Source of the DNA: an uncultured Pseudanabaenaceae cyanobacterium
GTDB taxonomy: Bacteria > Cyanobacteriota > Cyanobacteriia > Pseudanabaenales > Pseudanabaenaceae
NCBI GenBank assembly: GCA_937927915.1
Contig: CALGKB010000005.1
Location: 86,397-150,396 of the forward strand
DNA: 64,000 bases
Reading direction: 5' to 3'
Positions 6,523 to 36,109 of the stretch are shown here, one piece after another. Each line of letters opens with the position of its first letter. The stretch's first letter is position 1. The notes beneath the pieces are model-generated. The model had not been told where the DNA came from. It saw only the letters and a list, made by a program, of their open reading frames with translations, and did not search any database. Position numbers and translations under genes: made by a program.

Positions 6523-7809
6523 CTACTCCTGGGAGTTCTCTAGGGAAGAGATACGCACCCGATCGATGCGGGGTCCATCAGTGGAAGCGACGGTAATTTC
6601 TAAGTTATCAAAGATGAATTGTTCCCCGGGGCTGGGAATTTTTTGCAGGTGAAACAGGACAAAGCCCCCCAAAGTTTGATAGTCCTCATGGAGGGGGAGA
6701 TTTAAGCCGAGGGACTCATTTACTTCCTCAACACTCATCTGTGCCTGCACCAAAAAAGTACGTTCATCGATGACAGTAATCCCAGGCACTGCCTCATTGG
6801 GCGGTTCATGATCATCGCCGAGGATTTCCCTAATAATATCAGTCATAGTCAACAAACCCGCTGTGCCGCCATACTCATCTACTACCATCACCATTTGTTG
6901 ATGGGAGCGTTGCATTTGGGGCAGCAATTCTGCCAGATAAATATCCTCCGAGACAAAGCGTACAGGGCGAATGTAGGGGGCAATGGGCTGGTCGAGGTTG
7001 TAGTTTTCCCCTGGCAATTTAGCACTGATTTCTTTCAGGTCCACAATACCCCGAATATCATCTAGGGATTCCCCCGCCACAGGATAACGGCGATGGTGGC
7101 TGCGGGCAACAGCATTAAATAGATCGCGCAGAGTAGCGGTCACTTCCAGGTAGTCAATACTAGTGCGGGGACGCATCACTTCTCCTGCCGTAATATCGCT
7201 GAACTCAAACACATTTTTGAGTAGCTGTCTCTCTTCCGTCTCTAAGCCACTGGACTCGGAGGAAGTAGTAATTATGCGCTGTAATTCTTCGGCGCTGACA
7301 GCACTATACCAGGACTTGGGGCTATATTCCATGCCCAACAGCCGTAGCAACAAACGCGTAGACTGACTCAACAGCCAGAGCAATGGACTCACCAGTTCCA
7401 TCACGATTTCACTAGGGCGGGCTAACACCAATGCCAGTTTTTCACTGTGGGCAAGGGCAATGGATTTTGGGACTAATTCCCCCAACACTATTTGCAAATA
7501 GACAATCAAGCCCAGACTTATGGTTGGCGCTAATACCACTACCCATTCCTTTGACCCCAACCACTGGGAGACTTGATTAGTTAAACTTTCTTTGCCCACC
7601 CACCCCAAAGTCACACTGGCTAAAGTAATGCCAATCTGAGTAGCAGAGAGAAACCGATCGATTTGTCTTTGCAATCGCTGCACAACCAGGGCAGCACTAG
7701 ACCCCTCATCCACTAACTGGTGCACACGGGAACGGCGGAGGGAAACAACGGCAAATTCCGCAATGACAAACAGAGCATTTACTAACAGCAGGGGAATGAT
7801 AAAAGTCAA
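6523..7809 (-). CDS. CNNM/CorC (hemolysin C) family membrane protein
   Basis: A 428-residue protein with a DUF21 membrane domain (residues about 1-180, including AEFAVVSLRRSRV), a pair of CBS domains (about 200-320, starting MRPRTSIDYL) and a C-terminal CorC_HlyC domain ending in GPRIDRVRI. Family members bind magnesium or ATP and are linked to magnesium and cobalt efflux; the name hemolysin is historical. The reading frame opens with a TTG codon, which is the only start that leaves the normal N-terminus, so the start is a little uncertain. Confidence 0.9.
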   Translation of the reverse strand: MTFIIPLLLVNALFVIAEFAVVSLRRSRVHQLVDEGSSAALVVQRLQRQIDRFLSATQIGITLASVTLGWVGKESLTNQVSQWLGSKEWVVVLAPTISLGLIVYLQIVLGELVPKSIALAHSEKLALVLARPSEIVMELVSPLLWLLSQSTRLLLRLLGMEYSPKSWYSAVSAEELQRIITTSSESSGLETEERQLLKNVFEFSDITAGEVMRPRTSIDYLEVTATLRDLFNAVARSHHRRYPVAGESLDDIRGIVDLKEISAKLPGENYNLDQPIAPYIRPVRFVSEDIYLAELLPQMQRSHQQMVMVVDEYGGTAGLLTMTDIIREILGDDHEPPNEAVPGITVIDERTFLVQAQMSVEEVNESLGLNLPLHEDYQTLGGFVLFHLQKIPSPGEQFIFDNLEITVASTDGPRIDRVRISSLENSQE

Positions 7810-25313: not shown

Positions 25314-25396
25314 GGGGGTATGGCGGAATGGTAGACGCTACGGACTTAAAATCCGTTGACCGCAAGGTCGTAAGGGTTCAAGTCCCTTTACCCCCA
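25314..25396 (+). tRNA. tRNA-Leu (anticodon UAA), without intron
   Basis: Acceptor GGGGGTA (25314-25320) pairs with TACCCCC (25389-25395); discriminator A at 25396; no encoded CCA. The anticodon stem is ACGGA/TCCGT with loop CTTAAAA, so the anticodon is TAA (25347-25349). A long variable arm (GACCGCAAGGTC) marks a class II tRNA. Many cyanobacteria carry a group I intron inside this anticodon; here the loop is uninterrupted. Confidence 0.95.
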
Positions 25397-25536
25397 CTCC
25401 GGTTCATTTTATCCCATCTAGTCATCGAGGGCGAAAGTTGTCAGTAAAAGAGGACAAGTGAAAGCTAACCTCCCTACTGCCTCGGAGTCCAACGGAGACA
25501 GATTTTCACCCAAGGGGAAAATAGTGTAGAATAGGC
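25397..25536. other. Non-coding stretch between tRNA-Leu and the crRNA-like RNA
   Basis: No reading frame is supported. Short complementary segments are visible (TTGTC/GACAA; GTGAAA at 25459-25464 with TTTCAC at 25504-25509) and a possible -10 box TAGAAT at 25527-25532, ten bases before the degenerate repeat. A TTTTCA at 25503-25508 could serve as a weak -35. It probably holds the promoter of the crRNA-like RNA. Confidence 0.4.
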
Positions 25537-25571
25537 ATTCAGTACCTCAGATACCATCAGGTGTTGAGCAC
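25537..25571 (+). repeat. Degenerate CRISPR repeat upstream of cas6 (psi-R1)
   Basis: Aligned without gaps to the 35-base array repeat (see 35003-36109), 25 positions agree. The last nine bases, GTTGAGCAC, are identical and would form the 5' handle of a crRNA. The stem part has diverged (ACCATCAGGT against GCCGTAAGGC). The orientation is the same as in the array. Confidence 0.85.
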
Positions 25572-25646
25572 TTTAGCTACTTTGTGCTCAGGTGGGTCAA
25601 AGTAGAAGCTACAGGGGCTTGGGGAAAGACTTGGCAAAACTCCCCA

Positions 25647-25681
25647 GCCGTATACCTTTGATGCCGATAGGCGACCAATAT
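25647..25681 (+). repeat. Second degenerate CRISPR repeat upstream of cas6 (psi-R2)
   Basis: About 21 of 35 positions match the array repeat, including GATGCCG (25660-25666) and AGGCG (25669-25673), so the hairpin half is preserved (GCC-GATA-GGC) while the 3' handle is lost. It could provide the 3' Cas6 hairpin or be a relic. It is embedded in a larger fold closed by AGCTACAGG (25607-25615) and CCTGTAGCT (25685-25693). Confidence 0.6.
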
Positions 25682-25714
25682 ACTCCTGTAGCTGCATCTA
25701 AAAAATTTCCTATG

Positions 25715-25759
25715 TTTAGATACTTAGTGTTTGACATTTATATCCTTCGACCCTATCAT
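25715..25759 (+). promoter_or_regulatory. cas operon promoter with adjoining protospacer-like site
   Basis: A consensus -35 TTGACA (25731-25736) and a -10 TATCAT (25754-25759) are separated by exactly 17 bases, about 83 bases before the cas6 ATG. The site matching the crRNA-like guide occupies 25715-25729, ending one base before the -35 box, with ATG at 25712-25714 as the presumed PAM. A Cascade footprint of about 35 bases from 25715 would cover the -35 box. Confidence 0.8.
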
Positions 25760-25841
25760 ATAGTTACGACCTCAGAAAACCTTTAGGTTCTAAGCATCCT
25801 CCAACATCTTTTGAGAACTTTTAAGAAAGGTACGGATTTAT

Positions 25842-26474
25842 ATGACACCAAGTACTCAAACTATTGCTTCTACGTCTTTGTCAGAATTGCAGCTCATGGT
25901 AGATGTTACATTTCCTATAATCAGTGGTAAGGTCATTCCTGCTGACCATGGTTACGCTTTACTCTCATCAATCACAAGATACATCCCCAGCATCAAGGAA
26001 CACACAGATATAAGCATCCTGACTGCTTCAGGCTTGAGGGATGGAACAGGCAAGATAGTACTGGCAGAATACTCTCGTTTCCTTTTTCGTTTGCCCGTCA
26101 GTAAAATTCCCCTGGTTTACAGTTTGGCAGGCGAAACTCTCAAACTAGGTATCCATGCAATTAGGTTAGGTATTCCCAGTATTAATCCCTTGAAAGTTTG
26201 TTCCAAACTGCGCTCACGTATTGTAACTATCAAGGGATACGACCAGCCAGATGCGTTCCTAGAAGCAGTTCGTAGACAGCTAGAAGGATTGACAATTCGA
26301 GGAGAAGTCTCTCTACCCCACAACGCCCGCAAGACAATTAAAATCAAGCGATTTTCTGTAGTAGGCTTTACCGTGGAAGTACGGAACTTGAGTGAAGAAG
26401 ATTCCCTAAAATTACAAGCCTACGGCTTAGGCGGTAAAAGGCACATGGGTTGTGGCATTTTCCTGCCATTTTAA
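25842..26474 (+). CDS. cas6: CRISPR endoribonuclease Cas6, MYXAN type
   Basis: Cas6 cuts the array transcript inside each repeat to release crRNAs. The 210-residue product ends with the glycine-rich GLGGKRHMGCGIFLPF typical of Cas6 of the MYXAN (Cmx6) group. It is the first gene of the cas operon, starting about 76 bases after the expected transcription start, with an AAAGG ribosome site. Cas3 follows after 12 bases. Recognition is from the C-terminal motif, the length and the context; the catalytic residues cannot be picked out with confidence. Confidence 0.88.
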   Translation: MTPSTQTIASTSLSELQLMVDVTFPIISGKVIPADHGYALLSSITRYIPSIKEHTDISILTASGLRDGTGKIVLAEYSRFLFRLPVSKIPLVYSLAGETLKLGIHAIRLGIPSINPLKVCSKLRSRIVTIKGYDQPDAFLEAVRRQLEGLTIRGEVSLPHNARKTIKIKRFSVVGFTVEVRNLSEEDSLKLQAYGLGGKRHMGCGIFLPF

Positions 26475-26486
26475 GGAGCGGTAATC

Positions 26487-28895
26487 ATGTTCAAGTATCC
26501 TTATCCTTATCTATTGGCAAAAACTCTGCCCCCAGACAAACCAAAATATAAAAATCAACGCTGTGGGGCAATTTTTAGAGAGCATATCAACGCCGTAATG
26601 AAATCGGCTGTGATTATTCTCGATCGCTTGGGAGAGGATTTATACAATCAATTTGGCTTTAAGGATATTTCCCATGACTATTTAAGAAATACAGTGATTT
26701 TAGGGGCATTTTTGCACGACTTGGGTAAATGCAGTGAGCATTTCCAAGAGATGGTCTATCTCAAATCAGATAGCATCACGCCAGAAGATAAACAAAAATT
26801 ACAGAAAAAATGGAATGCTCACAGTAAAAAGCAAATGCTCCGCCATGAGGTCATTAGTGCCATTCTTGCCCTTACCCCTGAATTAAGAGGGTGGTTAGAG
26901 AATCCGCAAAAATACTGTCTAATAACTGCTATCTGTTCTGCTATGGGACATCATCTCAAATTAGGAATAGGAATAGATCATAAGCCTAATAGTTTAATCG
27001 CTGATTTTCCCGATGGCACAGGTAGTGAATTGCGGTTATTTACTCACCATGAGGATTTTCATGAGGTTCTCAAAAGGGGTAAGAAGTATCTCGGTTTATC
27101 TGATCCCCCTCAGAAATTACCAAAAGAACTGTGGCAGAAAGATGAACTAAAAGAGGCGATCGCTACTTTACAAGATGAATGCTTAGACTTCTCACGGAAT
27201 TTGACGGAAGAACAACGCCGTTTCATTGCTGTGGTCAAAGCATTGGTAATTTCCGCAGACTTAGCAGGTTCAGCCATCCCTGCTGTGAGTGATAATTCTC
27301 AACCCCTGTGGCAGTATTTGGAAAAATGGATTATTGAAGTATTGAATTTAACCCTAACCGAAGATGATTTGCAGAATTTAATCCATCAACGATTAGGTGA
27401 GAAGTCTTTGCGACCTTTTCAAGAGCAAATCGCCAATACACCGACCAGAGTAACTATAGTCAAAGCAGGGTGCGGTACAGGCAAAACGATCGGGGCTTAC
27501 GCATGGGCAAAGCAAAGAGCGATCGGGCGGAAACTATTCTTTTGCTATCCCACCACAGGTACAGCTTCCCAAGGCTACCTAGACTATGCCGCTGAAACGG
27601 AAATAGAATCAGCACTGATGCACTCCCGCGCTTCCATTGATTTGGAAAAAATTCTCTCCGCTTGTGAAGATGATGATGCCGATGGCATAGACGATCGCTT
27701 AGAAGCCATGACCGCATGGCAAGCCAAGTTGATTGTCTGCACCGTGGATACGGTCCTAGGGCTGGTACAGAATAATCGTAAGCCATTATTTTCTTTTCCT
27801 GCGATCGCCCAGGGAGCATTTGTTTTTGACGAAGTGCATGCCTTTGATGAGAAGTTATTTGGAGCACTACTCAGATTTTTGCAAACTTTTAGAGGTGCAC
27901 CTATTTTATTGATGAGTGCCAGTTTAAGCCCAGAACAGGAATCATCTATTTGTCGGGTAATTGAGGGCTTAGGAGAAACAGTAAATATTATTCAAGGGGA
28001 ACAAAAATTAGAAATTATCCCCCGCTACTCTATGCACTTAGAAACCGACCTAAATCAGATTTGGGAACAGGTACAGAATGCATTAACTAGTAACCAAAAA
28101 GTTCTATGGGTAACTAACACGGTCAAAGATTGTATTTCTATTTATCGTCAAGCAGAAAAATTATTTAGCAATGTGTTTATTTATCACAGCCGCTATCGCT
28201 ACAAAGACCGTTTAGAAAAACACAAACAGGTCATAACAGCATTCAAGGGCAATGATTCTTGCTTAGCGGTTACCACCCAAGTATGCGAAATGTCCCTTGA
28301 TTTGAGTGCCGATTTACTGATTAGTCAGGTCGCGCCTGCATACGCTCTGATTCAACGCATGGGCAGACTAAATCGCTATGTCTATGAAGATGAACTTGGT
28401 CAGATTAAGCTAGTATCTGGCAAAATTTGTCCCGCTATCTTTTATCCTAAAGATAAGCCTCTTCCTTATAGCGAAGAAGAAGTTGAAACAGGGCTTTTTT
28501 TGATTGATCAACTAAAATCTAAACCAGAAATTTCTCAGCAGGATTTAGCCGAAATATCTGCACAGATGCAAGATAAAGCATGGGTGGAAAGTGCCTCGAT
28601 TTGGTTAGATAAAACTTGGGAGACTTATCCAAAACCACTTAGGGAAGGAGGATATACAATGACTGTTATAATGGAAAGAGACCTAGAAACGATCAAACAA
28701 GTATCAGACCAGCGATCGAAGCAGAAAAAGATTCCATTCCCTAAAGCTATGATGCAGGAGATTCAGCGATGGACATTACCAATCAAAGTTATGAAGAATT
28801 ACAAAAGTTGGAAGCGATGGAAGTTCTATTATCGTGTACCTGATGAATGTATCAACTATTCTGAAATTACAGGCGGAGAAGAACTATGCAATTAG
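26487..28895 (+). CDS. cas3: CRISPR helicase-nuclease Cas3
   Basis: An 802-residue Cas3 with both activities in one chain. The HD nuclease domain shows the early His in FREHINAV, FLHDLGKC (HD at 77-78), RHEVISA and MGHHLKLG. The helicase part has Walker A AGCGTGKT (about 327-334), the DEVH box (FDEVHAFDE, Asp at 448), MSASLS (motif III) and QRMGRLNR (motif VI). Cas3 is recruited by Cascade to degrade the non-target DNA strand. No motif is broken, so it should be active. It overlaps cas8 by 10 bases. Confidence 0.95.
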   Translation: MFKYPYPYLLAKTLPPDKPKYKNQRCGAIFREHINAVMKSAVIILDRLGEDLYNQFGFKDISHDYLRNTVILGAFLHDLGKCSEHFQEMVYLKSDSITPEDKQKLQKKWNAHSKKQMLRHEVISAILALTPELRGWLENPQKYCLITAICSAMGHHLKLGIGIDHKPNSLIADFPDGTGSELRLFTHHEDFHEVLKRGKKYLGLSDPPQKLPKELWQKDELKEAIATLQDECLDFSRNLTEEQRRFIAVVKALVISADLAGSAIPAVSDNSQPLWQYLEKWIIEVLNLTLTEDDLQNLIHQRLGEKSLRPFQEQIANTPTRVTIVKAGCGTGKTIGAYAWAKQRAIGRKLFFCYPTTGTASQGYLDYAAETEIESALMHSRASIDLEKILSACEDDDADGIDDRLEAMTAWQAKLIVCTVDTVLGLVQNNRKPLFSFPAIAQGAFVFDEVHAFDEKLFGALLRFLQTFRGAPILLMSASLSPEQESSICRVIEGLGETVNIIQGEQKLEIIPRYSMHLETDLNQIWEQVQNALTSNQKVLWVTNTVKDCISIYRQAEKLFSNVFIYHSRYRYKDRLEKHKQVITAFKGNDSCLAVTTQVCEMSLDLSADLLISQVAPAYALIQRMGRLNRYVYEDELGQIKLVSGKICPAIFYPKDKPLPYSEEEVETGLFLIDQLKSKPEISQQDLAEISAQMQDKAWVESASIWLDKTWETYPKPLREGGYTMTVIMERDLETIKQVSDQRSKQKKIPFPKAMMQEIQRWTLPIKVMKNYKSWKRWKFYYRVPDECINYSEITGGEELCN

Positions 28896-30511
28896 AACAA
28901 ATGAAAAAACATCAAACTGTTTTGAATTACCATCTGGGTGATCCCTATATGACCATGCTTCATCGGGCAGGTTTGGCAGGTCTCTACATGACCCTTGAGC
29001 AATTTGAGAAAGAGAAAATCACTCCCTTTGGTGGCTTCACTTGGCAGAAGAGCGATCGCTCCATTACTCTATCTTGGGAAGGAAACGATCGAGAGGTATT
29101 AGACTGGTTGCTTAAAGAATCCTTCCAACTGCGAGATGGTCTAATCTATTTCCGAGCATTGGGAGATGTAGATATTCAGCCATTAGTAACTTTGCATCAG
29201 GGCATACTAGGCTCATTTCTACAACATAACAGCACCCACAAATCCACTGGCAAACAATCTAAAAGTTTCATGCTAGAAGAAGGGAAGCCCGAACTAATCA
29301 TAGAGTACAAGGCATTATCGACCTATTCCCATCAGGACTTCACCGAAAAATTATGTGATTCTAAAACAGGAAAATTGCTAGGAAAAACTGTAGCGATCGC
29401 TGGTTGGTTAAGCCCCGGTGCAGTAGTAAAGCACATTGCTTTTTCTGGTCAAACTGCCTTTGAGGAAACTGCCAGTTCTGCATTGTTATTATTATTTGCG
29501 CCCATTGCTTGTTGTTTTTTTGGATTGCGTTCTAAACTCAAAGAGCAGAAAGCTCAATACGCTCTTGTTATTCCTGAAGTTACTAATTTATCTGACTACA
29601 GCTACTATCGCAGAGAGTATTTGAACTTGGGCTTTAGAGACTTTTATGCTTCCAGTTTGGGTGATGCAGGCTTGAAGTTTTTAATTAGAGATAGCCTTGT
29701 CAATAAAACCGGGGGCATTATCCGCAACCTCCGAATCAAAACCTGTCATGTGATTACACTAGGTAGTGTACCTTGGGCAGGGCAACAAAAGACCCGTACT
29801 GATGTTTATACAGTTTCAGCTAACGAAACTATCTGTACCAATTACTATGTTGCCTGTGATCATTTGAGCGATCGAGTGATTGATAAAAAAGACAACAGTT
29901 CCAGTTGGATTGCTCCCAGTTTTGCCAGAGAAATTATTGCCGATAATCTGGCAAGGGGTAAACCATGGTTTGCTGACTTGTCAGCCATAGTCAATAGTGG
30001 AACACTATTTCAACAACTACTTTATGAAAGGGAGGGACTACACAAAATGATTAAAGATCAACGATTGCAATGGACCGATCAACAACGCTTATTTGTCCAA
30101 GCCTGTCATGAGGCAATTTCCAAAACATATGGTCAGTTATCTAGTAGAAATCAAAAAAATAAGGAAGATTCTACTCAAGACTCAGATATAAAATCTCGTT
30201 TTGAGAAAGTGAATGTGAAGTTTCGCACTGGTTTAGCAAGGTGTAAGAATGCCATTTCATTTCGTGAATTTATTACTAACTTCTGGGCTAAGGCTGGCTA
30301 TATTCCTACATTACAAAATCACTGGGAAGAAGTCATGAAGTTAGTAATTAGTGATTGGAGGTCTGCTAGAGACCTAGCTTTGCTTGCTTTAGCAAGTTAC
30401 AAGGGCAAGGAGAGTAAGCAACAATCTGATAATTCACCTGAACTTCCCAGTCAAGAAGAAACGCTTAGTAGTATCGGTACGATTGATGATGGATTTGACG
30501 AAGAGGAGTAA
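28886..30511 (+). CDS. cas8: Cascade large subunit Cas8, MYXAN (Cmx/DevT) type
   Basis: A 541-residue protein at the position of the large Cascade subunit, between cas3 and cas7. Its start (YHLGDPYMTMLHRAGLAGLYMTL), the AIAGWLSPGAVVKH segment and the acidic C-terminus resemble the MYXAN-subtype Cas8 (Cas8a1/Cmx, DevT-like). The large subunit recognises the PAM and, in many systems, recruits Cas3. The frame is intact. Different schemes group this backbone with I-A or I-B, so the subtype letter is left open. Confidence 0.82.
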   Translation: MQLEQMKKHQTVLNYHLGDPYMTMLHRAGLAGLYMTLEQFEKEKITPFGGFTWQKSDRSITLSWEGNDREVLDWLLKESFQLRDGLIYFRALGDVDIQPLVTLHQGILGSFLQHNSTHKSTGKQSKSFMLEEGKPELIIEYKALSTYSHQDFTEKLCDSKTGKLLGKTVAIAGWLSPGAVVKHIAFSGQTAFEETASSALLLLFAPIACCFFGLRSKLKEQKAQYALVIPEVTNLSDYSYYRREYLNLGFRDFYASSLGDAGLKFLIRDSLVNKTGGIIRNLRIKTCHVITLGSVPWAGQQKTRTDVYTVSANETICTNYYVACDHLSDRVIDKKDNSSSWIAPSFAREIIADNLARGKPWFADLSAIVNSGTLFQQLLYEREGLHKMIKDQRLQWTDQQRLFVQACHEAISKTYGQLSSRNQKNKEDSTQDSDIKSRFEKVNVKFRTGLARCKNAISFREFITNFWAKAGYIPTLQNHWEEVMKLVISDWRSARDLALLALASYKGKESKQQSDNSPELPSQEETLSSIGTIDDGFDEEE

Positions 30512-30513
30512 CT

Positions 30514-30588
30514 ATGTATCAGTTTCCAGTAGTCATTGAAAAACATGAAGAGGGATACTATTCCTACTGCTCTGTCTTGGAGGGTTGA
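30514..30588 (+). pseudogene. HicB antitoxin N-terminal stub
   Basis: A 24-codon frame directly after cas8, MYQFPVVIEKHEEGYYSYCS, then VLEG and a TGA stop. It matches the start of HicB antitoxins (pattern M-x-Y/F-VVIEKDEDGYYAFCPELxGC), with a stop where the conserved Cys of the GC pair is expected. No HicA toxin and no rest of HicB is present. It is either a relic of an inserted toxin-antitoxin pair or, less likely, a mini-ORF with its own role. It has a good ribosome site (GAGGAG). Confidence 0.65.
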
Positions 30589-30650: not shown

Positions 30651-30686
30651 TAAATTTACCTCAGATGCCCCTAGGCGACAGAACAC
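30651..30686 (+). repeat. Degenerate CRISPR repeat between cas8 and cas7 (second)
   Basis: CCTC-GATGCC (30659-30669), AGGCG (30673-30677) and a terminal ACAC (30683-30686) line up with the array repeat, with one extra base in the handle region. It lies 42 bases before the cas7 ATG, so any RNA made here would include the cas7 ribosome site or end close to it. Confidence 0.55.
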
Positions 30687-30728
30687 AACTAACTTTCAAT
30701 TCAATTGCAACTTTACAGGAGAGAAATT

Positions 30729-31652
30729 ATGAGTTGGCATCTTTTTGGTAACATTTTGACCAGCTACGGCACTGCTGCTAACAATCGCGGTGAGAACGAA
30801 GGAAATATCACCACCTTGCAGAAAATCCTTTGGCAGGGTGAGGTGCATTCCACTGTATCCGCCGAAGCAATTCGCTGGGCACTGCGCTACTACTGGCAGA
30901 CCTGCGGACACTATGAAGTTAATCGCAGATGGAATGATTTCATTAACGATAATGAGTGGCAGAATGAAAATTTTGATGACACCCAATACATTGATGATGA
31001 TGTTTTGGGGTTCATGCGGGCTGAGGCGGCAAAAGCTGAAGCCAATGATGAGGAAGAGCCTGCCGATGGCAAGAAGAAAAAGAAATCTCCTCCCAAGGGA
31101 ACTGCCACAGTCAAGCGGGGTGTATTAGAAGTAACTCGTGCTATTTCTACTACTCCTTTTGCTGGGGATATTACTTTCAATGCCGCGAGTGGAGCAAAGG
31201 GTAGAACTTCTCTTTATGGTGCGGAAGTACACGCAACCCGCTATCAGTATGGCTTTGCCCTCACACCCAATCGTCTAAAAGTTCAATCCAGAATCCATGC
31301 TGTTCTTGATGGTTTAACATCCCTAGGAAAAGTAGGTGGGAATCACTCCCGCTTCTTATATGATTTTGCGCCTGATAGTATTATTCTGCGTTGGACACAC
31401 GACTTTGCTCCCAGAATTCTCTATTGCTTTGTAGAGGAAGATGGCATGATTTCAGTTCCCGATCTGCTGAGAAGAATTGAGGCAGAAGACATTGATCCTC
31501 AAGAGCTATGGGTGGCTGGGGCAATTACCAACACTGACGATGGAGAAGAGTTAAAGGCAAGGGGTGTAAATCTCTTTGCAGGAATTAAAGAAGCTGTAAC
31601 TGATCTGAAGGCTAAAATCAATGAAGACCTTAATTTGAACCTAGAGGAGTAA
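30729..31652 (+). CDS. cas7: Cascade backbone protein Cas7, DevR family
   Basis: A 307-residue Cas7 of the Cst2/DevR family, the subunit that polymerises along the crRNA. It has the N-terminal MSWHLFGNILTSYGTAANNRGENEG, an insert rich in lysine and acid residues (about 95-125), and the AISTTPFAGDITFNAAS and GAEVHATRYQYGFAL segments that are diagnostic for DevR. ATG 30729 follows AGGAGAG; a start eight codons upstream is less likely. It is separated from cas8 by the HicB stub and the degenerate repeats. Confidence 0.92.
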   Translation: MSWHLFGNILTSYGTAANNRGENEGNITTLQKILWQGEVHSTVSAEAIRWALRYYWQTCGHYEVNRRWNDFINDNEWQNENFDDTQYIDDDVLGFMRAEAAKAEANDEEEPADGKKKKKSPPKGTATVKRGVLEVTRAISTTPFAGDITFNAASGAKGRTSLYGAEVHATRYQYGFALTPNRLKVQSRIHAVLDGLTSLGKVGGNHSRFLYDFAPDSIILRWTHDFAPRILYCFVEEDGMISVPDLLRRIEAEDIDPQELWVAGAITNTDDGEELKARGVNLFAGIKEAVTDLKAKINEDLNLNLEE

Positions 31653-31654
31653 TT

Positions 31655-31879
31655 ATGGAACTACTACCGCAACTCTTGAAAAACATTCAACTGCTAATGG
31701 AAAAAATTAAGGCATTTTACGATCGCTGGCAGATTACAGAATTTGTTCTCTTTAGTTCAGTATTGCAGGATGATTTTCGTCCTGATAGCGATATTGGTGT
31801 GTTGTATGTATTTGACAATAATGCCAAACACAGATTGTTTGATTTAGTCGCCATGAAAGAAGAACTAGAAAGTCTGTAA
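31655..31879 (+). pseudogene. Truncated MNT-type nucleotidyltransferase (antitoxin remnant)
   Basis: The 74-codon frame resembles MntA-like minimal nucleotidyltransferases that pair with HEPN toxins: ITEFVLFSSVLQDDFRPDSDIGVLYVF. The active-site GS is changed to SS and the SDxD is changed to SDIG, so two key residues are lost, and the frame stops well short of the family length. It begins 2 bases after cas7 and is joined by a deletion to the HEPN remnant that follows. Confidence 0.75.
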
Positions 31880-31881
31880 CT

Positions 31882-32106
31882 AGGCGACTGGAGATTTTGG
31901 GGGAAGCAGCGCGGCGGATTTCTGATAAAGCTCGTTCGGAAATCCCCGAAATTCCTTACTAGAAAATGATTGGCATGAGGAATGTACTTGTTCATCAATA
32001 CTATGAGATTGACTTGAATATTGTTTGGGATGTAATTCATCAAGAATTACCGAAATTATCATCTAGTCTTGAAAAAGAAATTGCTAGGAGGAAACTAAAC
32101 CAATGA
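31882..32106 (+). pseudogene. Truncated HEPN (DUF86) toxin remnant
   Basis: In one frame: RRLEILGEAARRISDKARSE, then IPEIPY, an amber stop (31960-31962) where the family has Trp, KMIGMRNVLVHQYYEIDLN and IVWDVIHQELPKLSSSLEKE. This is the C-terminal half of a DUF86/HEPN RNase toxin with the R-x4-H motif (RNVLVH) preserved. The N-terminal half is missing and the amber codon breaks the rest. The frame ends at 32106 and overlaps the cas5 ATG. Confidence 0.82.
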
Positions 32107-32726
32107 GTAAACTCTTTCCCTTATTAGTGGAAGTACCGATCGCTTGTTTTCGGCAGTCCCATGCCCGTGAATACGCAGAAACTTATCCTGTACCACCCCC
32201 TGCTACAGTGTATGGCATGCTTTTATCTTGCGTGGGCGAAGTGAATCGTTATCAACATATTGGTGTAAAGTTAGCGATCGCTATGCTTTCTAGTCCTACT
32301 AAATCTACTGTGATTAGAACTTTTCGCAGATTCAAGAAAAGAGAGATCAGCGACCCCACCAATGCCCGTCCCGACTTTCAAGAATTACTCACGGATACTA
32401 GGTTCATAGTGTGTGTTGATTCCAGTCAAGAGAAAAATTCACCAACTTTGCAGGAACGTCTAGAGAATGCTTTTACCCATCCAGAAACGATCGATCGATT
32501 TGGCGGATTATGCTTGGGAGAAAGTCGGGATTTAGTAAACTCAATTCAGAGATTTACTATTTCAACAGATGAGTATTATGAATGGCTCACCCAAGACCCA
32601 GATGGACTGCTAACATTGCCTTACTGGGTGGATCATGTAGGTTCTAGAGGGACGAAATGGCAAAGATATAGACTGGAACTGTCTAGTTTGAATCCCAGGG
32701 TATGGACACAAATTAAAACTGACTAA
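32103..32726 (+). CDS. cas5: Cascade subunit Cas5, DevS family
   Basis: A 207-residue Cas5 that caps the 5' handle of the crRNA. The N-terminal LLVEVPIACFRQSHAREYAE with YPVPPPATVYGMLLSCVGE and the GGLCLGESRDLV segment are typical of the MYXAN DevS (Cmx5) group. Its ATG overlaps the end of the HEPN remnant, so it has kept its start despite the insertion and decay upstream. The frame is intact. Confidence 0.9.
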   Translation: MSKLFPLLVEVPIACFRQSHAREYAETYPVPPPATVYGMLLSCVGEVNRYQHIGVKLAIAMLSSPTKSTVIRTFRRFKKREISDPTNARPDFQELLTDTRFIVCVDSSQEKNSPTLQERLENAFTHPETIDRFGGLCLGESRDLVNSIQRFTISTDEYYEWLTQDPDGLLTLPYWVDHVGSRGTKWQRYRLELSSLNPRVWTQIKTD

Positions 32727-32798
32727 TTTCTAGTTTGTTGAACTCTGCTGACGTCACAGATGGTTTATCCTTTGCTAACAATGCTTGAGGGAAATTGT

Positions 32799-34460
32799 AT
32801 GGTTTGCCTAACTTCATCTTCGCTTGATCTTGATACTATTCGTGTATCTTCTCTCCATGCTCTTGCTTATTGTGAACGGCTCTTCTTCTTAGAAGAGGTA
32901 GAAGAACTCTATACCCAGGATGCAGCTGTCTTTGCAGGTAGAAGACTCCATGTGCAAATTGGAAAGCAGGAAGGGGAAGAATATGAAGAACTTTTCTTGG
33001 AAAGCTCTGAACTTGGTTTAAGGGGCAAAGTTGATGTTCTTCGTACAATCAAAGGAGAATTAATTCCCTACGAACACAAACGGGGTAAGCCAGCTAGAGA
33101 TGACTCAAACAAACCAATTCCCTGGGATAGCGATCGGTTGCAAATTCTAGCATATGCCTACTTGATTGAATCTGCTCTAGAGCAAAAGGTAAGGGAAGGA
33201 CGCATTCGTTACCATGCCGATAATGTTTTGGTAAAGGTTCCGTTTGATGATAGTGGTAGAGAGGAAGTAAGACAGGCAATTCACAGGGCACGGGAGTTAC
33301 GCAAGTCTCTCTTTCGTCCTCCTGTAACTTCCAATGAGCGTCTGTGTCTACGATGTTCTCTTGCTCCTGTGTGTCTGCCAGAGGAAGCCCGCCTAACACA
33401 TAACCGAGAGTGGCAACCTGTACGTCTTTTCCCTGAAGATGACAATCGTAGGATTATTCATATACTTGAACCTGGTACAAAAGTGGGCAAAGCAGGGGAA
33501 CAAATCAAGATTACGCAGCCAGAGGGTTTGACCGAGTTAGTGCCTTCCCAAGAGGTTTCTCAGATTGTACTGCATGGTTTTGTGCAGATTTCTACCCAAG
33601 CAGTTCATAGTTTGGTTGATAAAGAGATAGGTATCCATTTTATTTCTAGTGGGGGCAGGTATGTTGGTAGTTTGGATACTAGGAGCGGTAGTATTCAGAG
33701 ACGGATTCGTCAGTATCAGGCTCTCTCTGACCCAGACTTTTGCCTGTCTTTAGCTAAAAGACTTGTGTTTTGTCGGGCTGAGGGACAACGTAAGTTCTTA
33801 ATGCGGGGTAGAAGAAACAAAACTACTTCCTTTGCCTGTCTTGATGAGTGTATAGACCAAATGCGTGATGTTATACAAAAAATTGATAGAGCAGATAAAA
33901 TTGACTCTCTGTTGGGCTATGAAGGAAATTTAGCAGCACTGTATTTCAAGGGGCTTTCTCATCTCCTTGTAGAACAAACAGACCCAGAAATGCACTTTGA
34001 CGGTCGCAACCGTCGCCCCCCGACGGATAGGTTTAATGCTCTTCTGAGCTTTGGCTATACTCTCTTACTAAAAGATATGGTCAACGCAATCTTAGTTGTG
34101 GGGCTTGAACCTGCTTTGGGCTTTTATCACCAACCTCGCACTCAGGCTCCACCTCTTGCCCTTGACTTAATGGAAATTTTTCGTGTTCCTCTAGTAGACA
34201 TGATCGTCATATCTTCTATCAATCGCCAACAGTGGCATGTAAAGGAAGATTTTGAGGTAAGGGGAAATCAAGTGTGGCTAAGTGATGCAGGAAAGAGAAA
34301 GTTTGTCGCTTTGTATGAGAAACGCAAGGAAGAGTCTTGGAAACATCCTATCTTGGGATATTCTCTGACCTATCGGCGCTTGATGGAATTGGAGGTGCAG
34401 TTGCTGGAAAAAGAATGGAGCGGAGAAACTGGTTTATTCGCAAATCTTATCCTGAGGTAA
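32799..34460 (+). CDS. cas4-cas1: Cas4-Cas1 fusion integrase
   Basis: One chain joins a Cas4 nuclease (about residues 1-190) to Cas1 (about 210-553). Cas4 shows the first cluster Cys in ALAYCERLFFL, the KVDVL Asp, the EHKRG E-x-K pair and the C-terminal CLRCSLAPVC. Cas1 shows the metal ligands Glu in LLGYEGNLAAL (375), His in LGFYHQP (444) and Asp in ALDLMEIF (456). It selects PAM-bearing prespacers and, with Cas2, inserts them. ATG 32799 is preferred because GAGGGA lies 6 bases upstream; ATG 32760 is in frame but has no ribosome site. Confidence 0.93.
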   Translation: MVCLTSSSLDLDTIRVSSLHALAYCERLFFLEEVEELYTQDAAVFAGRRLHVQIGKQEGEEYEELFLESSELGLRGKVDVLRTIKGELIPYEHKRGKPARDDSNKPIPWDSDRLQILAYAYLIESALEQKVREGRIRYHADNVLVKVPFDDSGREEVRQAIHRARELRKSLFRPPVTSNERLCLRCSLAPVCLPEEARLTHNREWQPVRLFPEDDNRRIIHILEPGTKVGKAGEQIKITQPEGLTELVPSQEVSQIVLHGFVQISTQAVHSLVDKEIGIHFISSGGRYVGSLDTRSGSIQRRIRQYQALSDPDFCLSLAKRLVFCRAEGQRKFLMRGRRNKTTSFACLDECIDQMRDVIQKIDRADKIDSLLGYEGNLAALYFKGLSHLLVEQTDPEMHFDGRNRRPPTDRFNALLSFGYTLLLKDMVNAILVVGLEPALGFYHQPRTQAPPLALDLMEIFRVPLVDMIVISSINRQQWHVKEDFEVRGNQVWLSDAGKRKFVALYEKRKEESWKHPILGYSLTYRRLMELEVQLLEKEWSGETGLFANLILR

Positions 34461-34464
34461 CAGT

Positions 34465-34758
34465 ATGGCGGAGTCAAGAAACTTTTATCTGATTTGTTAT
34501 GATATTCGGGAGCCGAAACGGTGGCGTAAAGCTTACAAGTTGTTACAAGGCTACGGCGATAGACTGCAATACTCTGTTTTTCGTTGCTTGCTAACTGTAC
34601 GCCATCGGGAAAAGCTGCGTTGGGAACTAGAAAAAATTCTCACCCCAGAGGACAGCTTGTTGATTGCTGGTCTGTGCGATCGGTGCGTGCAAAGGGTAGT
34701 TGCCTGCAATCGTCCAGAATCTTGGTCAACACTGCCATCTGGTTACCAAATTTTTTAG
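34465..34758 (+). CDS. cas2: CRISPR adaptation protein Cas2
   Basis: A 97-residue Cas2 that bridges Cas1 dimers during spacer integration. The YLICYDIREPKRWRKAYKLL start and QYSVFRCLL are family hallmarks. It follows the Cas4-Cas1 gene after 4 bases and is the last cas gene before the array. Confidence 0.95.
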   Translation: MAESRNFYLICYDIREPKRWRKAYKLLQGYGDRLQYSVFRCLLTVRHREKLRWELEKILTPEDSLLIAGLCDRCVQRVVACNRPESWSTLPSGYQIF

Positions 34759-35002: not shown

Positions 35003-36109
35003 GTTGCTTTCCTCTGATGCCGTAAGGCGTTGAGCACTCTTATCAAAGCTGCCCCCAGAAGCACGCTACGCTGTGTTGCTTTCCTCTGATGCCGTAAGGC
35101 GTTGAGCACAGGGAGACGCTCCTGAAAACACTAGTGCCCCCTCGGGGGGTTGCTTTCCTCTGATGCCGTAAGGCGTTGAGCACGAGAGTGATCTCGTACG
35201 GAGGCTCCCTTTGGATTACACGAGTTGCTTTCCTCTGATGCCGTAAGGCGTTGAGCACACCCTCGAATGGGGGGGGAACCAGTATCTCGGTGTAGGTTGC
35301 TTTCCTCTGATGCCGTAAGGCGTTGAGCACGCATTCGATCCCTCCATCAATACTAGGTTTGTAGACGGTTGCTTTCCTCTGATGCCGTAAGGCGTTGAGC
35401 ACGCATTCGATCCCTCCATCAATACTAGGTTTGTAGACGGTTGCTTTCCTCTGATGCCGTAAGGCGTTGAGCACAATAACAGAGGTTCACACTGTTAGCT
35501 AAGGAGGAAGGTTGCTTTCCTCTGATGCCGTAAGGCGTTGAGCACTACCCCTCTACAGGGTCGAGTTCCCGATCGGTGAGGGTTGCTTTCCTCTGATGCC
35601 GTAAGGCGTTGAGCACTAACTGGGCAATAAATCTCAGGGCGTGGTACTTCTGTTGCTTTCCTCTGATGCCGTAAGGCGTTGAGCACGCGACTGGGGGTCT
35701 AATGCCCGTTCTAACGTTGTGGGTTGCTTTCCTCTGATGCCGTAAGGCGTTGAGCACTTGGATAGGTGTCTACAATAGGTGATGACAACTTAGTTGCTTT
35801 CCTCTGATGCCGTAAGGCGTTGAGCACGAATTGTTGGATTTTCTCTCTGATACTGCCCATTATGTTGCTTTCCTCTGATGCCGTAAGGCGTTGAGCACGA
35901 ATTGTTGGATTTTCTCTCTGATACTGCCCATTATGTTGCTTTCCTCTGATGCCGTAAGGCGTTGAGCACTTGCAGTGGAAGTAGGAGATGAAACTGTTAT
36001 ATTTGTTGCTTTCCTCTGATGCCGTAAGGCGTTGAGCACACCCAGAATCTGCGGTTTCCTGTTTCGTCTTGCGAGTTGCTTTCCTCTGATGCCGTAAGGC
36101 GTTGAGCAC
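35003..36109 (+). CRISPR. CRISPR array, 16 repeats and 15 spacers
   Basis: Sixteen identical 35-base repeats (GTTGCTTTCCTCTGATGCCG followed by TAAGGCGTTGAGCAC) begin at 35003, 35075, 35149, 35224, 35296, 35368, 35440, 35511, 35582, 35652, 35723, 35793, 35864, 35935, 36005 and 36075. Spacers are 35-40 bases. Spacers 5 and 6 (35331-35367, 35403-35439) are identical, and so are 12 and 13 (35828-35863, 35899-35934). The repeat can fold through GCC-GTAA-GGC, leaving an 8-base UUGAGCAC handle if Cas6 cuts at the stem base. Confidence 0.98.

Follow-up and report, generated by a model that had tools for sequence, protein, structure and literature searches.

A predicted CreR ahead of a cyanobacterial type I-MYXAN cas operon that may guide Cascade to its own cas promoter

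The DNA analysed here is a 64,000-nt stretch from an uncultured Pseudanabaenaceae cyanobacterium (contig CALGKB010000005.1; "the window" means this whole stretch), which carries a CRISPR-Cas operon of type I-MYXAN (I-B). We conclude, with a probability of about 0.92, that positions 25537-25681 encode a predicted cas-regulating RNA (CreR) that would guide the operon's own Cascade (CRISPR-associated complex for antiviral defence) to the cas promoter (25712-25729) and thereby repress the cas operon. A first-pass annotation of this DNA had proposed such an autorepressor. Comparison with related loci supported it strongly, with two amendments: the element has two repeats, and in 15 of 26 loci the target lies 3' of the predicted start site.

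The guide, its target and their covariation in related loci

The degenerate repeat psiR1 is where the first-pass annotation had placed it, with 25 of 35 bases shared with the array repeat and the last nine exact. Its stem is preserved through compensatory change (GCC-GGC in the array, ACC-GGT, within ACC-ATCA-GGT, in psiR1), and it contains an intact 8-nt handle, TTGAGCAC, at 25564-25571; a mature RNA would begin there, at 25564, with UUGAGCAC. The sole Rfam match is this same repeat (CRISPR-DR33 at 25535-25571, E 0.0087), under the gathering score. The repeat had been described as lone, but a second degenerate repeat, psiR2, sits at 25647-25681; it keeps a Cas6-type hairpin (GCC-GATA-GGC) and has lost the handle. 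The unit in the window is thus psiR1, 75 nt and psiR2, and because of the second repeat it has the two-repeat anatomy given for CreA, the RNA of the haloarchaeal CreTA system, in the available part of PMC8501985. The 15 bases after psiR1 do match a stretch 143 nt downstream save at positions 6 and 12, both copies lying ahead of cas6, and the downstream copy does follow ATG and end 1 nt before the TTGACA of a near-consensus promoter (11 of 12 matches; Table 1).

In 1000 dinucleotide-type shuffles of 25587-25841 the observed 13 of 13 matches never occurred (the best had 9 with ATG and 11 with any flank). The target is the only ATG-flanked site with at least 11 of 13 matches in the whole 64 kb, both strands included, and ATG plus target was found once in the 2.4-Mb genome at up to 2 mismatches, where a reversed control pattern was found twice. 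These results indicate that the guide-target match is not due to chance.

Related loci had three sources. A family search covered 386 genomes from the phylum, of which 26 had a match, and 25 stretches were taken; a seven-sequence Cas8 alignment, run against named genome contigs, gave 42 loci; and among 291 relatives searched, 54 had a match and 15 stretches were taken. Two loci come from cultured relatives, L067 from Calothrix sp. PCC 7103 and L078 from Pseudanabaena sp. UWO311. Eight duplicate stretches were counted once (L044=L069, L043=L070, L040=L077, L041=L084, L042=L103, L140=L073, L146=L078, L148=L091). We excluded loci with no cas6 match in the scanned orientation (L066, L080, L082, L086, L095, L096, L099, L100, L101, L141, L142, L149, L150), loci with less than 50 nt upstream (L040/L077, L088), L049, in which cas6 follows cas5 in another gene order, and L063, which has no cas matches. 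The comparable set consists of 27 cas3-containing loci, the window included, with a Cas8 of at least about 48% identity and with upstream sequence available. A 12-mer with at most 2 mismatches to GGCGTTGAGCAC was accepted as a handle (3 mismatches in L081). A handle, a guide and an ATG-flanked downstream target were found in 26 of the 27 loci, and all 26 had a combined handle-plus-guide score of at least 20, compared with a maximum of 18 in 232 shuffled regions. The first 24 loci were used to set up the search; the three examined later gave two with the element (L145, L138) and one without (L143).

The first-pass annotation had staked its proposal on conservation of the match, and on covarying guides and targets, upstream of related MYXAN loci, and both were found. 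The 26 loci contain 17 distinct guide seeds, 23 of the 26 seeds are identical to their own target, and ATG stands ahead of every target. When guides were permuted among loci, the best of 20,000 permutations gave a fit of 251 versus the observed 327. Some foreign guides fit a single locus equally well, because close relatives share guides.

Where guide and target agree follows a regular pattern. Among the 26 loci they are equal in 25, 26, 26, 26 and 24 at positions 1-5, in 5 at position 6, in 26, 26, 20, 25 and 25 at positions 7-11, in 9 at position 12, in 21, 22, 17, 18 and 19 at positions 13-17 and in 5 each at positions 18 and 19, with about background beyond, so that the match extends to approximately position 17. 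At positions 6, 12 and 18, independence of guide and target would give 4.2, 8.4 and 6.8 matches, and 5, 9 and 5 were observed. The available part of a paper on the type I-B Myxan Cascade of Synechocystis PCC 6714 describes every sixth crRNA (CRISPR RNA) base as flipped out (5+1) and AYG as the best protospacer-adjacent motif (PAM; PMC11096372). The 6/12/18 periodicity and the ATG flank of the 26 loci agree with this pattern and this PAM, although the large subunit of that Cascade belongs to the distant Cmx8 branch, unlike the Cas8 of the window. The free positions fit the footprint of Cascade's flipped-out sixth base, which is how the first-pass annotation had explained the two mismatches. The target base is A at position 6 in 20 of the 26 loci and at position 12 in 19.

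Table 1. Features of the proposed regulatory unit and of the cas locus (window coordinates)
Feature	Position	Strand	Evidence
Possible promoter of the crRNA-like RNA, TTTTCA-N18-TAGAAT	25503..25532	+	Consensus scan, 9/12 matches; predicted
psiR1, degenerate CRISPR repeat, ATTCAGTACCTCAGATACCATCAGGTGTTGAGCAC	25537..25571	+	25/35 identity to array repeat; last nine bases identical
Guide, TTTAGCTACTTTGTG	25572-25586 (25572..25588 as extended part)	+	Positions 1-5, 7-11 and 13-15 equal the cas promoter region
Hairpin in interval (GGCT-T-GGGGA ... TCCCC-AGCC)	25616..25649	+	Fold of interval; counterpart of the conserved hairpin of relatives
psiR2, second degenerate repeat	25647..25681	+	21/35 overall; core CCTTTGATGCCGATAGGCG 16/19
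ATG, putative PAM	25712..25714	+	ATG in 26/26 loci; AYG PAM of type I-B Myxan Cascade (PMC11096372, part available)
Guide target, TTTAGATACTTAGTG	25715..25729	+	Differs from guide at positions 6 and 12 only
Predicted cas promoter, TTGACA-N17-TATCAT	25731..25759	+	11/12 consensus matches; TTGACA 25731-25736, TATCAT 25754-25759
Weak repeat-like element in cas6 leader, uncertain	25770..25796	+	By eye against relatives; missed by hairpin scans
cas6 (type I-MYXAN)	25842..26474	+	TIGR02807, E 9e-62
cas3	26487..28895	+	TIGR01587, TIGR01596
cas8 (Cmx1/Csx13)	28886..30511	+	TIGR03485, E 3e-88; PDB 8FCJ chain I, E 1e-62
Solo Cas6-type hairpin before cas7, CCTCAGATGCC-CCTA-GGC	30659..30685	+	Hairpin scans; handle not conserved
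cas7	30705..31652	+	TIGR02585
cas5	32103..32726	+	TIGR02586
cas4-cas1 fusion	32760..34460	+	TIGR03983, TIGR00372
cas2	34465..34758	+	TIGR01573
CRISPR array	35003..36109	+	16 identical 35-nt repeats; spacers 35-40 nt

Structure, mechanism and alternative readings

psiR2 is present in 23 of 24 loci, and its end lies 95-112 nt after psiR1 (exactly 102 in 14). Between psiR1 and the psiR2 core there are 75 nt in 15 of the 23 measured loci and 68-85 nt in the rest, with 83 nt in the window. This is about twice an array spacer (35-40 nt), which sets the unit apart from a canonical CRISPR mini-array with its normal spacer; L138 has a short interval of 32 nt and no hairpin. In most units a hairpin adjoins psiR2; aligned over the 25 loci other than L138, it has a helix of 10 pairs of which 9 are changed on both sides. 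The structure was predicted from the alignment that also served for the test, and as a whole it had a covariation score of 0.333 compared with 0.218 (standard deviation 0.019) in shuffles; none of 500 was as high, and each slid control was lower. As a guess, the folded hairpin would bring the long RNA to a length that Cascade accepts.

Two promoter geometries were observed. In 15 of 26 loci the -35 box of the best promoter-like site precedes the target by 42-46 nt, as does that of the second choice in 3 more (counts made with no shuffle control). In these loci Cascade would therefore occupy the bases that are transcribed first. The -35 box lies 16-21 nt after the target start in the window, L145 and L138, and L076, L078, L079, L081 and L089 fit neither geometry.

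From these features we propose the following course of events. Cas6 would cut the CreR precursor at both repeat hairpins, the handle would recruit Cas5 and Cas8, and Cascade would assemble on CreR. The complex would find ATG and pair at positions 1-5, 7-11 and 13 to about 17, forming a partial R-loop that stalls and does not license Cas3. In the window the bound complex would cover the -35 box, in most relatives the beginning of the transcribed region, and so block RNA polymerase. Titration of Cascade by array crRNAs, or its inactivation by an anti-CRISPR, would relieve repression and raise the production of Cas protein.

Several observations weigh against this proposal. Since the R-loop in the window would end at the -35 box, repression there would rely on the bulk of the complex, and the fold of the interval indicates that the guide is able to pair with its own downstream sequence. 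The cas3-containing relative L143 lacks the element. In L079 the counted target is just inside cas6, and upstream of psiR1 there is a better one that follows TTGACA, the arrangement of cas targets in other loci. The psiR1 hairpin was counted in 21 of 24 loci, a weak result because the scan required three pairs and allowed loops of up to 33. Finally, the PAM could not be derived from the spacers of this array. A search of the array against phages and plasmids gave no match, and six of eight spacer patterns (18-22 nt) had none among viral contigs; a 20-nt partial viral match of one further pattern was judged to be chance. The last spacer (36040-36074) matches nine related IMG/VR contigs, each 4.8-8.8 kb long, with 28-30 of 35 positions equal (the first 20 nt by construction), and the 5' flank is ATA in seven, ATG in one and ATC in one.

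Another reading of the same anatomy is an addiction module of the CreTA type, in which the RNA represses a small toxin gene instead of the cas operon. CreA has degenerate repeats and a seed at 1-5 and 7-11 as well (PMC8501985, in the part available), and 5 of 26 loci (L078, L145, L138, L083, L081) have the target 318-435 nt ahead of the cas6 match, which leaves room for a small gene; by eye, that gap in L145 holds a small open frame. However, the target stands within 300 nt of cas6 in 21 of the 26 loci (small frames in the relatives were not searched for), and the window promoter leads straight into cas6 through about 75 nt after the predicted start site in which no ATG-started frame is seen by eye, though a mini-ORF (open reading frame) or CreT-like toxin RNA is possible there. 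We therefore consider a toxin target improbable.

Less probable still is a direct repeat bound by a protein repressor. Two similar 15-nt copies 143 nt apart ahead of cas6 could be so read, but the motif varies between species and only the match between copies is kept; moreover, the 26 loci have one copy after a repeat handle and the other after ATG, with positions 6, 12 and 18 free. Equally doubtful is a relic, an old mini-array whose match is the fossil of a self-derived spacer with no present function: the repeats are degenerate, and the L078 match is longer than elsewhere (23 of 30 positions), as for a self-derived spacer, but the seed positions match in 24-26 of 26 loci (20 at position 9), and agreement at 6, 12 and 18 is no better than chance, which indicates that selection has kept the match.

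Other loci and Cas6-type hairpins in cas mRNA leaders

The scan for handle, guide and target ahead of cas6 gave none in three further sets: 13 loci without cas3 in the stretch (L039, L046, L047, L048, L050, L051, L087, L092, L104, L105, L139, L144, L147), which by gene content look like CRISPR-associated transposons; 13 loci with a divergent Cas8 of 28-31% identity (group 2: L052-L062, L151, L152); and 5 distant loci not labelled as cyanobacterial in their records (L093, L094, L097, L098, L102). In group 2, the score of L052 was an array artefact and was dropped, and L060 scored 17, at the 99% level of the shuffles and below their maximum of 18. The absence in group 2 holds ahead of cas6 only, because L055 has a unit inside the operon: a mini-CRISPR in the cas3-cas8 gap (near 6610-6775, minus strand) with an ATG-flanked match of 11 of 14, kept as possible, which may regulate cas8. 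L059 and L056 have repeat pairs between cas3 and cas8 and no convincing target.

A whole-locus scan gave 31 ATG rows, which beyond the known pairs included rows of L045, L041, L093 and L055 and second targets in L045, L071 and L079. Three rows of L045 are its array, and the single rows in L041 and L093 were set aside as chance. The second ATG-flanked matches in L045, L071 and L079 (13, 12 and 11 of 14) lie 197-386 nt upstream of psiR1; in some loci the RNA may therefore act on a further promoter on that side as well, perhaps the one from which it is itself transcribed. A covariance model, R1, was left unused for counting, as most of its matches were arrays and it did not separate CreR from ordinary array units. 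In L138 a Piwi-domain (argonaute-like) protein (L138:5439-7688, minus strand) is encoded directly 5' of CreR and cas6, and the ORF beyond appears Cas4-like by eye.

We also scanned 32 operons of the window-Cas8 clade, some of them incomplete, for the repeat part that Cas6 recognises (left arm and stem, no handle). In 252 kb, 58 such solo sites were in sense and 8 in antisense orientation. Outside genes there were 51 sense sites in 26 of the 32 loci; 14 loci had one before cas6, 3 before cas3, 7 before cas7 and 19 before cas4-cas1. The sites before cas6 in L079 and L091 are psiR2 itself, and a few sites are remote from the gene that follows or seem to derive from an array (L068, L070, L066). 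Group 2 had 12 sense and 3 antisense sites, in 4 of 13 loci. Sequences 3' of the solo hairpins contained no ATG-flanked match, save a borderline L064 case at its own CreR target.

In 17 cas4-cas1 leaders, among them that of L064 (L064:8222-8275), the repeat-like element is able to base-pair with an anti-repeat beside the start codon, and this pairing excludes the Cas6 hairpin. In an alignment of 17 of the 19 sequences (L045 and L078 left out), 87% of cells were paired, 4 of 11 pairs were changed on both sides (8 of 500 shuffles had as many) and the covariation score was above all 500 shuffles, while the Cas6 hairpin itself showed no covariation in these leaders. Predicted folds contain the anti-repeat pairing in about 14 of 19 leaders, with modest stability relative to shuffles (z -0.6 to -3.2). 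The two leader elements of the window were considered as Cas6 switches, and folding gave no support (z +1.1 for the cas6 leader, -0.1 for the cas7 site).

The exact hairpin motif occurs 20 times in the genome: 16 times in the array, in psiR2, before cas7, in a lone repeat on another contig and once more, by eye inside a glycosyltransferase-like gene. The lone repeat, near-exact and far from the array (L009:3585-3613, minus strand; genome contig C9:137584-137612), lies 3' of a 91-aa ORF with no Pfam match and, by eye, ahead of a terminator-like hairpin; a target was sought for it and none was convincing.

We tentatively suggest, holding it somewhat less likely than its negation, that there are two layers of self-regulation, in which CreR-Cascade would shut the promoter and Cas6 would act on the handle-less leader hairpins of cas6, cas3, cas7 and cas4-cas1, the cas4-cas1 leader, with its competing hairpin and anti-repeat, serving as a translation switch that senses Cas6 and controls the adaptation genes. 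Such a switch would be a natural counterpart of Csy4-processed synthetic operons. Literature on Cas6 autoregulation and polycistronic operon mRNA, as titles and abstract openings, yielded no Cas6 hairpins in cas mRNA leaders that we recognised.

The cas locus, known systems and meaning of the element

The first-pass annotation had called the system MYXAN-type, and the NCBIfam MYXAN models for Cas6/Cmx6, Cas8a1/Cmx1, Cas5/Cmx5 and Cas1 all scored above cut-off. Genes run in the order cas6, cas3, cas8, cas7, cas5, cas4-cas1, cas2 and then the array. The frames of cas6, cas8, cas7 and cas5 are uninterrupted and each fits its own model; 8FCJ is the closest solved relative of this Cas8. The cas7-cas5 gap holds an ORF with a nucleotidyltransferase domain (31655-31876) and a HepT-like C-terminal fragment (31966-32103), probably the remains of an MNT-HEPN toxin-antitoxin pair. 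In the cas8-cas7 gap, a 24-residue frame (30514-30585) with no Pfam match resembles by eye the start of a HicB antitoxin. A tRNA-Leu (TAA) gene (25314-25397) lies 140 nt 5' of the mini-CRISPR.

CreR RNAs (Liu et al. 2023) have been reported for types I-B, I-E and V-A, according to the parts of three papers available to us (PMC13131331, PMC12737573, PMC12948488). Like them, the window has repeat-like elements outside the array that flank a guide (25/35 and 21/35), and a PAM-flanked match to this guide at the predicted promoter of its own cas operon; the 26 loci share seed pairing with every sixth position free. Unlike them, these are cyanobacterial I-MYXAN loci with an interval of about two spacers and a covarying hairpin, two promoter geometries and solo leader hairpins. 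CreA of the haloarchaeal I-B CreTA is also arranged as psiR1, guide and psiR2, with a seed at 1-5 and 7-11, dispensable positions 6 and 12 and a PAM-flanked promoter target, and that of H. hubeiense also sits just upstream of the cas operon; its target drives a toxin RNA (PMC8501985, PMC9458426, both available in part), whereas the window promoter leads into cas6 and no toxin was seen by eye in the leader. In type II-A, tracr-L is a guide RNA that matches a short stretch of the promoter and thereby makes the effector repress the cas operon that encodes it (PMC8730458, in the part available), but it is derived from Cas9/tracrRNA and the window system is based on Cascade.

In the partly available literature searched, which did not include the primary CreR paper and a 2023 survey of regulatory RNAs, we recognised no cyanobacterial MYXAN CreR; those two may already list some such cases. 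Shmakov et al. 2023 reportedly describe CRISPR-derived regulatory mini-arrays, standalone repeats beside cas promoters with partial complementarity, mostly of type I. The CreR principle is thus known, and what appears to be new is the other clade, the long structured interval and the extra leader hairpins.

If the proposal is true, RNA-guided autorepression would be a standing control of Cas protein level in a clade of cyanobacterial type I-B systems, and the 26 natural guide-target pairs would be an evolutionary readout of the bases recognised by Cascade in vivo. Those who build CRISPR tools for cyanobacteria would also gain a means of adjusting native Cas expression, and the leader hairpins make feedback of Cas6 on its own operon directly testable.
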